Shown: one piece after another, positions 51,237 through 56,685 of the stretch
Numbering within the stretch: the stretch's first letter is position 1
Layout of the letters: every line of letters starts with the position of its first letter
Program-made: the position numbers and the translations under genes
The notes under the pieces: model-generated
Seen by the model: only the letters and a program-made list of their open reading frames with translations
The model's database searches: none
Told to the model about the DNA's origin: nothing
NCBI RefSeq assembly: GCF_900475315.1
Contig: NZ_LS483369.1
Coordinates: forward strand, 1,364,001-1,428,000
From: Neisseria cinerea
Lineage (GTDB): Bacteria; Pseudomonadota; Gammaproteobacteria; Burkholderiales; Neisseriaceae
Reading direction: 5' to 3'
Length of the DNA stretch: 64,000 bases

Positions 51237-51244
51237 TAAAGCTT

Positions 51245-51333
51245 CTTGTCGGAGTGCCGCCGCCGGGCGGCTGAGATTGCGAAAGCAAAATCCGTAGAAC
51301 CTGTCGGGGTAATGCCTGCGTAGGAAACAAACC
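51245..51333 (+). promoter_or_regulatory. TPP riboswitch of the cytX-thi locus
   Basis: Plus strand carries the aptamer blocks CGGAGTGC, GGCGGCTGAGATT, ATCCGTAGAACCTG and GGTAATGCCTGCGTAGGAA. It precedes cytX by about 75 bases. Confidence 0.93.
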
Positions 51334-51408
51334 TTCCCTGCCCGTTCGGGCTTGCGTTCCCTTTTCCGCACTTCCCCGCCCACCTTCCTTCTTTTTAAAG
51401 GACGTCAT

Positions 51409-52644
51409 ATGTCGGGCAATATTTCACAACAACCTTCGTCTGCCGCCTCCGCTGCCGGCATCGGGCTGATTTGGTTCGGCGCGGCGGTATCGATTGCCGA
51501 AATCAGCACGGGCACACTGCTCGCCCCCTTGGGCTGGCAACGCGGTTTGGCGGCACTGCTGCTCGGCCATGCCGTCGGCGGCATATTGTTTTTCGCGGCG
51601 GCATATATCGGTGCATTCACGCAAAAAAGCGCGATGGAAAGCATACGCCTGTCGTTCGGCACAGGCGGTTCCGTCTTATTTTCGGCGGCGAACGTGCTGC
51701 AATTGGTCGGCTGGACGGCCGTCATGATTTATTCGGGTGCGGCGGCAAGTTCCGCACTGGGCAAAATGCTCTGGCAAAACGGATCGTTTTCCTGGTGGGC
51801 TTTTACCAACGGCGCGCTGATTGTCTTGTGGCTGATTTTCGGCGCACGCAAAACAGGCTGGCTGAAAACCGGTTCGATGGTGCTGATGCTGTTGGCGGTT
51901 CTGTGGCTGAGTGCCGAAGTCTTTTCCACGGCAGGCAGCACCGCCGCACAAGTTTCAGACGGCATGAGCTTCGGAACGGCAGTCGAACTGTCCGCCGTCA
52001 TGCCGCTTTCCTGGCTGCCGCTGGCCGCCGACTACACACGCCAAGCACGCCGCCCGTTTGCGGCAACCCTGACGGCAACGCTCGCCTATACGCTGACGGG
52101 CTGCTGGATGTATGCCTTAGGTTTGGCAGCGGCGTTGTTCACCGGAGAAACCGATGTGGCAAAAATCCTGTTGGGCGCGGGCTTGGGCATAACGGGCATT
52201 CTGGCAGTCGTCCTGTCGACCGTTACCACCACTTTTCTCGATGCTTACTCCGCCGGCGTAAGTGCCAACAATATTTCCGCCAAACTTGCGGAAACACCCG
52301 TCGCCGTCGCCGTCACCGTTGTCGGCACACTGCTTGCCGTCCTCCTGCCCGTTACCGAATATGAAAACTTCCTCCTCTTGATCGGCTCGGTATTTGCGCC
52401 GATGGCGGCAGTTTTGATTGCCGACTTCTTCGTCTTAAAACGACGGGAGGAAGTAAAAGGCTTTGATGTTGTCGGACTGGCCTTATGGCTGGCCGGCTTC
52501 ATCCTCTACCGCTCCCTGCTGTCGGCAGGCTGGGAAAGCAGCATCGGCCTGACCGCGCCCGTAATGTCTGTCGTTGCCATTGCCACCATACCGGTGCGCC
52601 TTTTCTTTAAAAAAACCCAATCTTTACAAAGGAACCCGTCATGA
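51409..52644 (+). CDS. cytX: Hydroxymethylpyrimidine transporter CytX (NCS1 family)
   Basis: A 411-residue nucleobase-cation symporter with about 12 helices, including IGLIWFGAAVSIAEISTG, MPLSWLPLAADYTRQARRP and VSTVTTTFLDAYSAGVSA. The position behind a TPP riboswitch identifies it as CytX, the thiamin-precursor importer. ATG 51409 follows aaagga; the longer frame from 51352 is leader RNA. An uptake sequence is read as VSDGMS. The stop overlaps thiO (ATGA). Confidence 0.88.
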   Translation: MSGNISQQPSSAASAAGIGLIWFGAAVSIAEISTGTLLAPLGWQRGLAALLLGHAVGGILFFAAAYIGAFTQKSAMESIRLSFGTGGSVLFSAANVLQLVGWTAVMIYSGAAASSALGKMLWQNGSFSWWAFTNGALIVLWLIFGARKTGWLKTGSMVLMLLAVLWLSAEVFSTAGSTAAQVSDGMSFGTAVELSAVMPLSWLPLAADYTRQARRPFAATLTATLAYTLTGCWMYALGLAAALFTGETDVAKILLGAGLGITGILAVVLSTVTTTFLDAYSAGVSANNISAKLAETPVAVAVTVVGTLLAVLLPVTEYENFLLLIGSVFAPMAAVLIADFFVLKRREEVKGFDVVGLALWLAGFILYRSLLSAGWESSIGLTAPVMSVVAIATIPVRLFFKKTQSLQRNPS

Positions 52645-53735
52645 CCCGTATCGCCATCCTCGGCGGCGGCCTCTCAGGAAGGCTGACCGCACTGCAACTT
52701 GCAGAACAAGGTTATCAGATTGCACTTTTCGACAAAGGCACCCGCCAAGGCGGACACGCCGCCGCTTATGTTGCCGCCGCCATGCTCGCGCCTGCGGCGG
52801 AAGCAGTCGAAGCCACGCCTGAAGTCATCAAACTGGGCAGGCAGAGCATTCCGCTTTGGCGCAACATCAGAGGCCGTCTGAAAACGCCTGCCATGATGCA
52901 GGAAAACGGCAGCCTGATTGTGTGGCACGGGCAGGACAAACCATTATCTAGCGAGTTCGTCCGCCATCTCAAACGCGGCGGCGTGGCGGATGACGAAATC
53001 GTCCGTTGGCGCGCCGACGACATCGCCGAACGCGAACCGCAACTCGGCGGACGTTTTTCAGACGGCATCTACCTGCCGACCGAAGGCCAGCTCGACGGGC
53101 GGCAAATATTGTCTGCACTTGCCGACGCTTTGGACGAACTGAACGTCCCTTGCCATTGGGAACACGAATGTGCCCCCGAAGACCTGCAAGCCCAATACGA
53201 CTGGCTGATCGACTGCCGCGGCTACGGCGCAAAAACCGCTTGGAACCAAGCCCCCGAACACACCAGCACCTTGCGCGGCATACGCGGCGAAGTGGCGCGG
53301 GTTTACACACCCGAAATCACGCTCAACCGCCCCGTGCGTCTGCTCCATCCGCGTTATCCGCTCTACATCGCCCCGAAAGAAAACCACGTCTTCGTCATCG
53401 GCGCGACCCAAATCGAAAGCGAAAGCCAAGCCCCTACCAGCGTGCGTTCCGGGCTGGAACTTTTATCCGCGCTTTATGCCGTCCATCCTGCCTTCGGCGA
53501 AGCCGACATCCTCGAAATCGCCACCGGCCTGCGCCCCACGCTCAACCACCACAACCCCGAAATCCGTTACAACCGCGCCCGACGCCTGATTGAAATCAAC
53601 GGCCTTTTCCGTCACGGCTTCATGATTTCCCCCGCCGTAACCGCCGCCGCCGTCAGATTGGCAGTGGCACTGTTTGACGGAAAAGACGCACCCGAACGTG
53701 ATGAAGAAAGCGGTTTGGCGTATATTGGAAAATAA
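52641..53735 (+). CDS. thiO: Glycine oxidase ThiO-like flavoprotein
   Basis: A 364-residue FAD-dependent amine oxidase that oxidises glycine to the imine used in thiazole synthesis. The FAD motif GGGLSG is at residues 8-13, with an AAMLAPAAE block and, at the C-terminus, GLFRHGFMISPAV. Translationally coupled to cytX. It holds both an AG-type uptake sequence (AGGCCGTCTGAA, 52871-52882) and an AT-type one (FSDGIY), a mosaic of dialects. Confidence 0.92.
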   Translation: MTRIAILGGGLSGRLTALQLAEQGYQIALFDKGTRQGGHAAAYVAAAMLAPAAEAVEATPEVIKLGRQSIPLWRNIRGRLKTPAMMQENGSLIVWHGQDKPLSSEFVRHLKRGGVADDEIVRWRADDIAEREPQLGGRFSDGIYLPTEGQLDGRQILSALADALDELNVPCHWEHECAPEDLQAQYDWLIDCRGYGAKTAWNQAPEHTSTLRGIRGEVARVYTPEITLNRPVRLLHPRYPLYIAPKENHVFVIGATQIESESQAPTSVRSGLELLSALYAVHPAFGEADILEIATGLRPTLNHHNPEIRYNRARRLIEINGLFRHGFMISPAVTAAAVRLAVALFDGKDAPERDEESGLAYIGK

Positions 53736-53740
53736 GCTTG

Positions 53741-53752
53741 AGGTCGTCTGAA
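53741..53752 (+). repeat. Foreign-dialect uptake sequence (AG-muc type)
   Basis: AGGTCGTCTGAA exactly, the dialect of the N. mucosa group, right after the thiO stop. Confidence 0.8.
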
Positions 53753-53786
53753 AACGTCGCGTTATCAGTTTTATAAAAGTAACAAT

Positions 53787-54245
53787 ATGAATTTAGAAAC
53801 CAAAATTCCGCCGCCAGCGATATGTTTTATTTGTGCGTTGTTGATGTACATCTCTGCACAAGTGTCGGCATTGGCCGGCATATTGCCGCGCTTTCCTATA
53901 TTGCTGTCGGTTGTTTTCATGGTGTTTGGGACTCTGTTGAGCGTATTAGGTGTGTGGGCGTTTCGCCGTGTGCGCACGACCGTCAGCCCACTCAACCCCG
54001 AACAAACCGAACACTTCGTTTCAGACGGCGTGTACCGCTTCAGCCGCAACCCGATGTATGCGGGTATGGGCTGTTGGCTGGTTGCATGGGCAGGCTATAT
54101 GGCGCACCCGCTGCCGTGGTTGTTTTTGGCTGCATTTGTTGTCTATATGACACGCTTTCAAATCATGCCCGAAGAACGCGTTTTGGCGCGAAAATTCGGT
54201 GCCGAGTACGAAGCGTACTGCCGACACGTCCGCCGTTGGTTATAA
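53787..54245 (+). CDS. Isoprenylcysteine carboxyl methyltransferase-like membrane protein
   Basis: A 152-residue protein with three or four helices and the ICMT/PEMT signature at the C-terminal end: GVYRFSRNPMYAG then a hydrophobic segment and EERVLARKFGAEYEAYCRHV. It uses SAM to methylate small or lipid substrates; substrate unknown. It interrupts the thiamin genes and is bracketed by AG-muc-type uptake sequences (53741, 54313), which marks it as an import. A short AT-like uptake sequence (TTTCAGACGGCGT) lies inside, read as VSDGV. Confidence 0.82.
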   Translation: MNLETKIPPPAICFICALLMYISAQVSALAGILPRFPILLSVVFMVFGTLLSVLGVWAFRRVRTTVSPLNPEQTEHFVSDGVYRFSRNPMYAGMGCWLVAWAGYMAHPLPWLFLAAFVVYMTRFQIMPEERVLARKFGAEYEAYCRHVRRWL

Positions 54246-54312
54246 AAGCGAAAGCTTCCCATCAAGTATCGCCCGTCTTCTGCTCTACGGCATGAATGTG
54301 AATACCCGATGT

Positions 54313-54324
54313 TTTAGACGACCT
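54313..54324 (-). repeat. Foreign-dialect uptake sequence (AG-muc type, one mismatch)
   Basis: On the minus strand AGGTCGTCTAAA, one base from AGGTCGTCTGAA. With the copy at 53741 it brackets the ICMT-like gene. Confidence 0.65.
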
Positions 54325-54357
54325 TTATTGCTCCGTAAGAAATGAAAAGGACACCCC

Positions 54358-54975
54358 ATGACCTTCCCACCCCTAAAATCCCCGCTTAAACTCTACGCCG
54401 TTGTTCCCACCGCCGATTGGGTCGAGCGCATGGTCAAAGCAGGTGCCGACACGGTGCAACTGCGCTGCAAAACCTTGTATGACGATGAATTAAAACGTGA
54501 AATCGCCCGCTGCGTCGCCGCCTGTCAGGGCAGCCGTACGCAGCTTTTCATCAACGACCACTGGCGCGAGGCGATAGAAGCGGGCGCATACGGCGTGCAT
54601 CTCGGACAGGAAGACATGGACACCGCCGACCTTGCCGCCATCGCCGCCGCCGGTTTACGTTTGGGTTTGAGTACGCACTCCGTCGCCGAACTCGACCGCG
54701 CCTTGTCCGTACATCCCAGCTATGTCGCCAGCGGCGCGATTTTCCCGACCACGACCAAACAAATGCCCACCGCTCCGCAAGGTTTGGACAAACTGCGCGA
54801 ATATGTGAAACAGGCAGGCAGCACGCCCGTCGTCGCCATCGGCGGCATCGATTTGAACAACGCCCGAGCCGTCCTTGCCACTGGTGTTTCCTCACTCGCC
54901 GTCGTCCGTGCCGTGACCGAAGCCGAAAATCCCGAAGCCGTGGTTAAAGCGTTTCAGGCTTTGTGGGATGAATGA
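54358..54975 (+). CDS. thiE: Thiamin-phosphate synthase
   Basis: A 205-residue TIM-barrel enzyme that joins the pyrimidine and thiazole halves into thiamin phosphate. Blocks are LYAVVPT, GADTVQLRCK, FINDHWREAIEAGAYGVHLG, HSVAELDRA, SGAIFPTTTK and AIGGIDLNNA. Aaaagga is upstream. Preceded by the ICMT-like insert and followed by an AG-type uptake hairpin. Confidence 0.95.
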   Translation: MTFPPLKSPLKLYAVVPTADWVERMVKAGADTVQLRCKTLYDDELKREIARCVAACQGSRTQLFINDHWREAIEAGAYGVHLGQEDMDTADLAAIAAAGLRLGLSTHSVAELDRALSVHPSYVASGAIFPTTTKQMPTAPQGLDKLREYVKQAGSTPVVAIGGIDLNNARAVLATGVSSLAVVRAVTEAENPEAVVKAFQALWDE

Positions 54976-55006
54976 GGCCGTCTGAAAAACCAATTTCAGA
55001 TGGTCT
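54975..55006 (+). terminator. thiE terminator built from AG-dialect uptake sequences
   Basis: AGGCCGTCTGAAA and TTTCAGATGGTCT pair with two G-U wobbles. The AG dialect contrasts with the AT dialect used for most hairpins here. Confidence 0.7.
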
Positions 55007-55057
55007 AAGAAAGCGAAAAAGATTCAATTTACCGTGTAGGCAAAACTTAGCCCGCTA

Positions 55058-55164
55058 TATAGTGGATTAAATTTAAATCAGGACAAGGCGACGAAGCCGC
55101 AGACAGTGCAGATAGTACGGCAAGGCGAGGCAACACCGTACTGGTTTAAAGTTAAGCCACTATA
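55058..55164 (+). repeat. Correia element (short, internally deleted form)
   Basis: A 107-bp element with terminal inverted repeats TATAGTGGATTAAATTTAAA and, reversed, TATAGTGGCTTAACTTTAAA, interior GGACAAGGCGACGAAGCCGC, and TA at the ends, the target-site signature. It sits between thiE and thiS and ends 21 bases before thiS. Such elements can carry promoters, IHF sites and RNase III sites. Confidence 0.9.
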
Positions 55165-55185
55165 AATACAGAAAATCGAGAAAAC

Positions 55186-55380
55186 ATGAATATCATCTTA
55201 AACGGCGAACCCGCCGAACTTCGCGGCAAAACCGTTGCCGACCTCATCGCCCAAACCGCGCCGCAACAACCTTTTGCCGTCGCCGTGAATACCGGATTTG
55301 TCGCCAAAGGCACGTATGCGGAAACGGTTTTGAACGAAAACGACAAAGTCGATATTGTGCGGCCGGTAGTCGGCGGCTGA
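55186..55380 (+). CDS. thiS: Sulphur carrier protein ThiS
   Basis: A 64-residue ubiquitin-fold protein ending VVGG. The C-terminal Gly is adenylated by a ThiF-type enzyme and then carries sulphur for thiazole synthesis. It lies 21 bases after the Correia element and just before thiG. Confidence 0.93.
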   Translation: MNIILNGEPAELRGKTVADLIAQTAPQQPFAVAVNTGFVAKGTYAETVLNENDKVDIVRPVVGG

Positions 55381-55455: not shown

Positions 55456-56244
55456 ATGCTCACCCTATACGGAGAAACTTTCCCTTCACGGCTGTTGCTC
55501 GGCACGGCTGCCTACCCGACCCCTGAAATCCTCAAACAATCCGTCCGTATCGCCCAACCCGCGATGATTACCGTCTCGTTGCGCCGCGCAGGAAGCAGAG
55601 GTGAGGCACACGGTCAGGGATTTTGGTCGCTATTGGAAGAAAGCGGCGTGCCCGTACTGCCGAACACAGCAGGCTGCCAAAGCGTGCAGGAAGCGGTAAC
55701 GACGGCGCAGATGGCGCGTGAAGTGTTTGAAACCGATTGGATCAAACTCGAGCTCATCGGCGACGACGACACCTTGCAGCCGGATGTATTCCAGCTTGTC
55801 GAAGCGGCGGAAATCCTGATTAAAGACGGCTTCAAAGTACTGCCTTATTGCACCGAAGACCTGATTGCCTGCCGCCGCCTGCTCGACGCGGGCTGTCAGG
55901 CGTTGATGCCGTGGGCAGCTCCCATCGGCACGGGTTTGGGCGCGGTTCACGCCTACGCGCTGAACGTCCTGCGCGAACGCCTGCCCGACACGCCGCTGAT
56001 TATCGATGCGGGCTTGGGTTTGCCCTCGCAGGCGGCGCAAGTGATGGAATGGGGGTTTGACGGCGTATTGCTGAACACCGCCGTTTCCCGCAGCGGCGAC
56101 CCCGTCAACATGGCGCGCGCCTTCGCGTTCGCCATCGAATCCGGGCGGCTGGCATTTGAAGCCGAACCGGTCGAGGCTCGCACCAAAGCGCAAGCCAGTA
56201 CGCCGACCGTAGGTCAGCCGTTTTGGCATTCGGCGGAATATTGA
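55456..56244 (+). CDS. thiG: Thiazole synthase
   Basis: A 262-residue TIM-barrel enzyme that forms thiazole phosphate from deoxyxylulose phosphate, dehydroglycine and ThiS thiocarboxylate. The Schiff-base lysine is Lys97 in [11 protein letters not shown]. It ends with the PTVGQPFW block. ATG 55456 follows aagga; upstream in-frame codons are the uptake hairpin. Confidence 0.96.
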
Positions 56245-56518: not shown

Positions 56519-56524
56519 TAAAAC

Positions 56525-56685
56525 CACTCGGAAGTCGTCAATTCCGAACCATTAAACACCGTATTCCCCATAATTCACTTTCACACTTGGAGTCTGCATA
56601 TACGAGACATACATTCCCTTTTTATATATCAGATACTCAAAACCGAAATGCCAAACCCACCGTAAAGGTGGGTTTGGCATTTCTC
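56525..56685 (+). ncRNA. nrrF: Iron-responsive small RNA NrrF
   Basis: A non-coding transcript of about 160 bases from the Fur-controlled promoter to a strong terminator (ATGCCAAACCCACC - gtaaa - GGTGGGTTTGGCAT, 56648-56680, then T-rich). The location between thiG and a SPOR-domain gene is where NrrF was described in meningococcus. It contains unpaired C- and A-rich stretches suited to pairing and Hfq binding. NrrF lowers sdhCDAB mRNA under iron limitation and, as reported in gonococcus, petABC. Confidence 0.88.

Follow-up and report, generated by a model that had tools for sequence, protein, structure and literature searches.

Comparison of the thi locus across Neisseria indicates that a block of about 1.9 kb, comprising the end of thiO, a gene for an ICMT-like methyltransferase and thiE, was very probably imported across uptake sequence (DUS) dialects, from an AG- or AG-muc-dialect commensal into the AT-dialect host, Neisseria cinerea. 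An earlier note on this DNA had proposed the footprint of a cross-species transformation event. The import itself is borne out by the absence of the ICMT-like gene (hereafter ICMT) from five other AT-dialect genomes, empty sites in four of them, shared junctions and a mosaic tract, while transformation is the route that we infer. The window analysed is the 64,000-nucleotide stretch at 1,364,001–1,428,000 of the host genome (complete, 1.83 Mb), and the survey covered 46 Neisseria genomes, with one genome per species. Besides the host, the AT-dialect genomes were G019, G005 (N. bergeri), G014 (a record titled N. gonorrhoeae), G022 (N. polysaccharea) and G039 (N. viridiae).

The ICMT-like gene in the thi operon

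The operon has the order TPP riboswitch, cytX, thiO, ICMT-like gene, thiE, thiS and thiG (Table 1), and the ICMT-like reading frame was located inside it as the earlier note had said, between the thiO stop (53735) and thiE (54358). Its product matched the Pfam families PF04191 (PEMT, 1.9e-12) and PF04140 (ICMT, 2.1e-5) as well as PDB 4a2n (6e-6), and shares with the ICMT/PEMT family the conserved RNPMYAG and EER...FGxEY stretches. It differs in scoring far under the NCBIfam equivalog cut-offs, namely, 46 bits versus 160 for NF040696 (protein-S-isoprenylcysteine O-methyltransferase) and 24.2 versus 270 for MddA; the ICMT-like assignment is therefore one to the wider Pfam families and names no substrate. 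The dN/dS values of ICMT against all relatives were 0.10–0.14, indicating purifying selection.

Table 1. Features of the thi region of the host, in window coordinates
Feature	Position	Strand	Basis or remark
TPP riboswitch, upstream of thi operon	51240..51343	+	Rfam RF00059, 66.6 bits
cytX, putative hydroxymethylpyrimidine transporter, host-type	51409..52644	+	TIGR02358, 510.9 bits; closest to N. bergeri
thiO (glycine oxidase)	52641..53735	+	host-type to ~53470–53510; 3′ end foreign-type
Foreign tract, best estimate	53510..55368		maximum-segment permutation test, N. bergeri vs G007, P = 0.0002
ICMT/PEMT-like small membrane methyltransferase, 152 aa, intact	53787..54245	+	Pfam, PDB
Degenerate AG-mucDUS AGGTCGTCTAAA	54313..54324	-	putative scar of NERD-gene deletion between two DUS copies
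thiE (thiamine phosphate synthase)	54358..54975	+	TIGR00693, 172.3 bits; nearest G007
AG-DUS AGGCCGTCTGAA and inverted partner, 13-bp hairpin 3′ of thiE	54975..55006	+	fold
thiS-like gene	55186..55380	+	ORF position, synteny
thiG	55456..56244	+	AT-dialect grouping, tree 85/89

Folding of the thiO–ICMT and ICMT–thiE spacers revealed no terminator hairpin better than shuffled sequences. The hairpin after thiE had a free energy of -18.5 kcal/mol (z -5.6), its 13-bp stem being still perfect through G-U pairs, and G007 carries a perfect AG-mucDUS pair at the homologous position. With no similar hairpin between thiO, ICMT and thiE, ICMT is probably cotranscribed with the thi operon under the control of the TPP riboswitch. 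By direct sequence comparison, the thiE–thiS spacer is interrupted at 55058–55164 by an element which we take, from its ends, to be a Correia-type repeat. The site is uninterrupted in G007 (CCCGCTATA-AATACAG), indicating that this element entered a foreign-type spacer. The small RNA NrrF (RF01416, 179.9 bits) was detected downstream of thiG, at 56524–56682 of the window.

Distribution of ICMT and contents of the thiO–thiE slot

ICMT was detected at an identity of at least 88% in 8 of the 46 genomes, among which the host is the sole AT-dialect one. The other carriers are of the AG-muc dialect (G007, G018, G023 or N. sicca, and G026 or Neisseria sp. HMSC077D05) or the AG dialect (G012, a record titled N. 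elongata, G021 and G035). None of the five other AT-dialect genomes compared has the gene: the thiO–thiE slot is empty, with a gap of approximately 30–35 bp, in G019, N. bergeri, G014 and N. polysaccharea, and holds genes other than ICMT in N. viridiae. The gene order is thiO–ICMT–NERD gene–thiE in G007 and thiO remnant (last ~47 codons)–ICMT–thiE in G035, and in G012 a thiO remnant–ICMT pair lies ~10 kb before a complete thiO–WG-repeat gene–NERD–thiE block. In G018, G023, G026 and G021, ICMT is at a locus other than thiO–thiE; its flanking genes in G018, as read from translations, resemble those for a pseudouridine synthase and, on the opposite strand, for an alcohol dehydrogenase.

Slots flanked by thiO and thiE were found in G000, G019, G005, G014, G022, G039, G007, G018, G023, G026 and G012, and were empty or contained ICMT, ICMT plus NERD, WG-repeat plus NERD, or WG-repeat alone. 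No integrase or transposase ORF was found in the host slot, where ICMT is the only gene. Judged from these gene orders, the thiO–thiE interval behaves as a minimal mobile element, with contents that differ between species. In N. viridiae (L116 6335–8277), a broken WG-repeat gene and a NERD gene occupy the slot together with two AG-mucDUS copies, which appears to be the outcome of another cross-dialect import at this interval, independent of the one in the host. The gap between thiE and thiS holds a DUF4304 gene flanked by AGGTCGTCTGAA copies in N. polysaccharea (L115 9995–10895), N. viridiae (L116 8893–9793) and N. bergeri (L113 4049–4955), and other genes in AG-muc genomes; this gap may be another such slot.

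That G007 has the arrangement of the host, and G035 too except for its truncated thiO, would also be expected if ICMT were ancestral between thiO and thiE in both AT and AG-muc species and had been lost in most AT species. This we regard as extremely improbable, because the AT species, whose shared thiO end and spacer are of another form, would have had to lose the gene cleanly and repeatedly, and because in most AG-muc genomes ICMT lies at another locus and the slot is filled by other genes. Furthermore, the thiO body and petB of the host are AT-type, whereas the tract is G007-type, as detailed below.

Junctions, mosaic tract and phylogeny

Import of the block is also reflected in its junctions. 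From the thiO stop through AGGTCGTCTGAA to the ICMT start, the host sequence is nearly letter-for-letter that of G035 and G007, and the ICMT–thiE spacer is near-identical between the host and G035. The AT species have a different thiO end, which in G019 and N. bergeri reads YIRRQD and is followed by AAGCCGTCTGAA. At the sites differing between N. bergeri and G007, the host changes from bergeri-like to G007-like across the tract given in Table 1, and other host proxies gave P = 0.0008–0.005. The left end was placed at 53612 with G019, 53523 with G014 and 52831 with G022 as the proxy; the right end varied with the proxy between 55281 and 56217 and is less certain than the left. Pairwise host and donor proxies were used because fixed AT/muc differences, of which the region has 43, are too sparse in thiE. 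Apart from the Correia-type element, the thiE–thiS spacer showed 90–93% identity to G007 and G012 versus 59% to G019 and G014. Background DNA identity between the host and AG-muc genomes was 87% for ppc and about 86–91% for petB.

In the petB tree the host grouped with N. bergeri, N. polysaccharea and N. viridiae (95/99), while in the ICMT tree it grouped with G035, G007 and G012 (100/100), as the earlier note had predicted. Its prediction that thiG would follow the host lineage also agrees with the tree obtained, in which the host grouped with AT species (85/89, not starred). The trees thus conflict with the species tree inside the tract (ICMT) and agree with it outside (petB and thiG), the pattern expected of an import. 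The same note had expected thiO to be foreign, which applies to its 3′ end, mosaic from ~53510, but not to its first ~820 bp. For these the best tree put the host among the AT species (98/100), closest to N. bergeri, although the AU test did not reject a grouping with muc (p = 0.23). The 3′ end is short and gave AU p = 0.24 for AT monophyly. For thiE, predicted to group with mucosa-type species, the host was indeed nearest to G007, but AT monophyly was only borderline disfavoured (AU p = 0.068). Among the loci fetched, cytX stands beside thiO only in those of the AT dialect.

DUS copies against the genome background

The DUS placements of the earlier note were accurate. The AG-mucDUS AGGTCGTCTGAA lies at 53741–53752(+), between thiO and ICMT and at the cassette junction; the minus-strand copy before thiE (Table 1) is a one-base variant of it. 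The AG-DUS AGGCCGTCTGAA at 54975–54986(+) has an inverted partner at 54995–55006(-), which reads AGACCATCTGAA, and a further AGGCCGTCTGAA lies in the interior of thiO at 52871–52882(+). That the AT dialect prevails in the window was likewise confirmed: 60 of its 78 GTCTGAA-core sites are ATGCCGTCTGAA, including one at 53057, between the copies at 52871 and 53741, and only four of the 78 are AGG[C/T]CGTCTGAA (20726, 52871, 53741 and 54975). Genome-wide, the host has 1437 copies of ATGCCGTCTGAA, 247 of AGGCCGTCTGAA and 88 of AGGTCGTCTGAA, and is by these counts an AT-dialect genome with ~19% AG types among the three DUS counted. Its 10-mer count, at least 1684, does not fit the figure of 943 published for N. 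cinerea strain ATCC 14685 (PMC3630211).

With AG types this frequent, the AG copies could be ordinary background left by old exchange or point mutation, and three of them close together would mean nothing. The genome contains 335 AGG[C/T]CGTCTGAA sites (0.18 per kb). At one given place, 2.1 kb would contain three or more AG-type copies with P = 0.007, but ~19 equally tight clusters (three AG-type copies in 2.1 kb) are expected genome-wide by chance, and the window has fewer AG-type sites than expected (4 vs 11.7). DUS clustering, which is not significant against the genome background, was thus rejected as evidence of import; motif clustering alone does not show it. For the motif cluster alone the background explanation stands, and the copy at 52871 looks like a separate case of it. 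As a full explanation of the locus it is refuted by the shared junctions and leaves ICMT and the mosaic tract unaccounted for, and we consider it very unlikely.

The earlier note had included the 52871 copy in the foreign block. At the homologous site, G019 and G014 have ATGCCGTCTGAA, N. polysaccharea and N. viridiae have ATGCCTTCTGAA, and the host has AGGCCGTCTGAA; all four AG-muc genomes, G012 and also N. bergeri have AGGTCGTCTGAA. The muc-type sites at 52831–52872 are common to the host and N. bergeri and are flanked on both sides by host-type sites, the informative sites at 52874–53306 being host-type. The copy is therefore not part of the block and marks a separate patch, probably an older one.

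Donor and course of the probable import

The N. mucosa group, to which the earlier note had assigned the foreign dialect, is not where the closest sampled block was found: this is in the AG-dialect genome G035, whose own block was apparently imported. ICMT is only 92–95% identical to its nearest sampled relatives, indicating that the direct donor is not among the sampled genomes. The import may have come immediately from an AG-dialect (G035-like) strain rather than an AG-muc one, an option that we take seriously without favouring it. The G035 block is the most similar to that of the host (ICMT 94.6%, ICMT–thiE spacer 96.4%) and is also NERD-less. AG-DUS is moreover the better-accepted dialect in meningococci, which were transformed by AG-mucDUS DNA at 36% and by AG-DUS DNA at 90% of the AT-DUS level (PMC3630211). 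However, G035 looks like a recipient itself, since the thiO of the block is reduced there to its final ~47 codons, its own thiO (78% identity) lies ~14 kb away, and its relatives G013, G024 and G036 were found to lack ICMT. In addition, the foreign thiO end of the host reaches further left than is shown for the G035 remnant, and one unsampled AG-muc donor could have supplied the host and G035 independently.

In G035 (L124 6537–7919), the thiO end, ICMT and thiE stand before thiS–thiG, with a full divergent thiO elsewhere, and the block looks imported there too. In the AG-dialect G012 (L126), thiO and thiE showed ~93% DNA identity to the host compared with 79% for petB, and its whole thi block looks imported from the AG-muc side.

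For the host, we propose that DNA of an AG- or AG-muc-dialect commensal would have been taken up by transformation, and that homologous recombination in the thiO 3′ end and in thiE–thiS would have replaced ~1.9 kb. This exchange would have brought in the thiO end, the AG-mucDUS, the intact ICMT-like gene, thiE and the thiE–thiS spacer, with the foreign DUS copies as passengers. We infer uptake by transformation from the DUS content and tract length, and the direction of transfer and the order of events are likewise proposals. Meningococcal conversion fragments average ~1.5 kb (PMC2397512). Before this, ICMT may have entered the slot first in an AG-muc ancestor, with junctions at DUS copies, from a source locus between the pseudouridine-synthase and alcohol-dehydrogenase genes; the neighbouring NERD gene would have been deleted later, by a loss running from one DUS copy to another, and only then would the block have passed to the host.

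DUS copies at cassette junctions

The thiO–WG site of G023 shares the 19-bp string GAGGTCGTCTGAAAACGTC with the sequence preceding ICMT at the other ICMT locus, and this string forms the left junction in G007; the shared length drops to 14 bp with G023's own ICMT copy. GTTTCAGACGACCT is common to the WG–NERD site and the stretch that follows ICMT. In G007, most of the NERD gene lies between two DUS copies that have GTTTTCAGACGACCT in common; in the host, the sequence to the left of one of these copies continues directly into the sequence to the right of the other. Three cassette junctions would thereby fall on 14–19 bp repeats containing DUS copies. These alignments raise the idea that DUS serve both as uptake tags and as short homology joining whole-gene cassettes, ICMT having replaced the WG-repeat gene and NERD having been deleted between DUS copies. 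We advance this only as a speculation, and a rather doubtful one: DUS often lie at gene ends anyway, the right side needs further small deletions, and the pattern comes from one locus.

Relation to known systems and significance

Minimal mobile elements of Neisseria (Saunders and Snyder 2002; Snyder et al. 2007) are defined by the anatomy seen at thiO–thiE (PMC3082526), where conserved flanking genes in the same order bound a slot with different whole genes, exchanged by homologous recombination in the flanks. Consistent with such exchange, the host tract reaches into thiO and thiE–thiS and the slot carries no mobility gene, the mechanism itself being deduced from this. The present case differs in that the genomes concerned belong to separate species with distinct DUS dialects, not to strains within a single species, and in having junctions that fall on DUS copies. 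Earlier work has described import between species and the occurrence of AG-mucDUS in AT genomes (Frye et al. 2013, PMC3630211), and islands have been located by means of foreign-dialect DUS (Hughes-Games et al. 2020, PMC7371117). As in those studies, AG-mucDUS in an AT-dialect host accompany DNA of the AG/AG-muc side; unlike them, the host case is a gene-conversion tract of ~1.9 kb, not an island or ICE, and dialect density alone would not have found it.

A literature search by locus tags turned up an unrelated metabolic-model paper but no published description of the thiO–thiE locus, and a search for DUS with microhomology found no paper on DUS as cassette junctions. The host import adds a new, well-resolved instance to a known process, gene exchange by DNA uptake; only the DUS-junction idea is potentially novel. 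On their own, foreign-dialect DUS say little about import until they are set against the genome background.

The host tract provides a bounded case of a gene crossing between DUS dialect groups, and such groups have been described as barriers to transformation between species. The thi locus appears to have been exchanged repeatedly, several species having traded different genes at thiO–thiE. If the DUS-junction idea is true, scattered DUS would make intergenic regions interchangeable slots across dialects, and if the pattern is general, it would give DUS a role in recombination.
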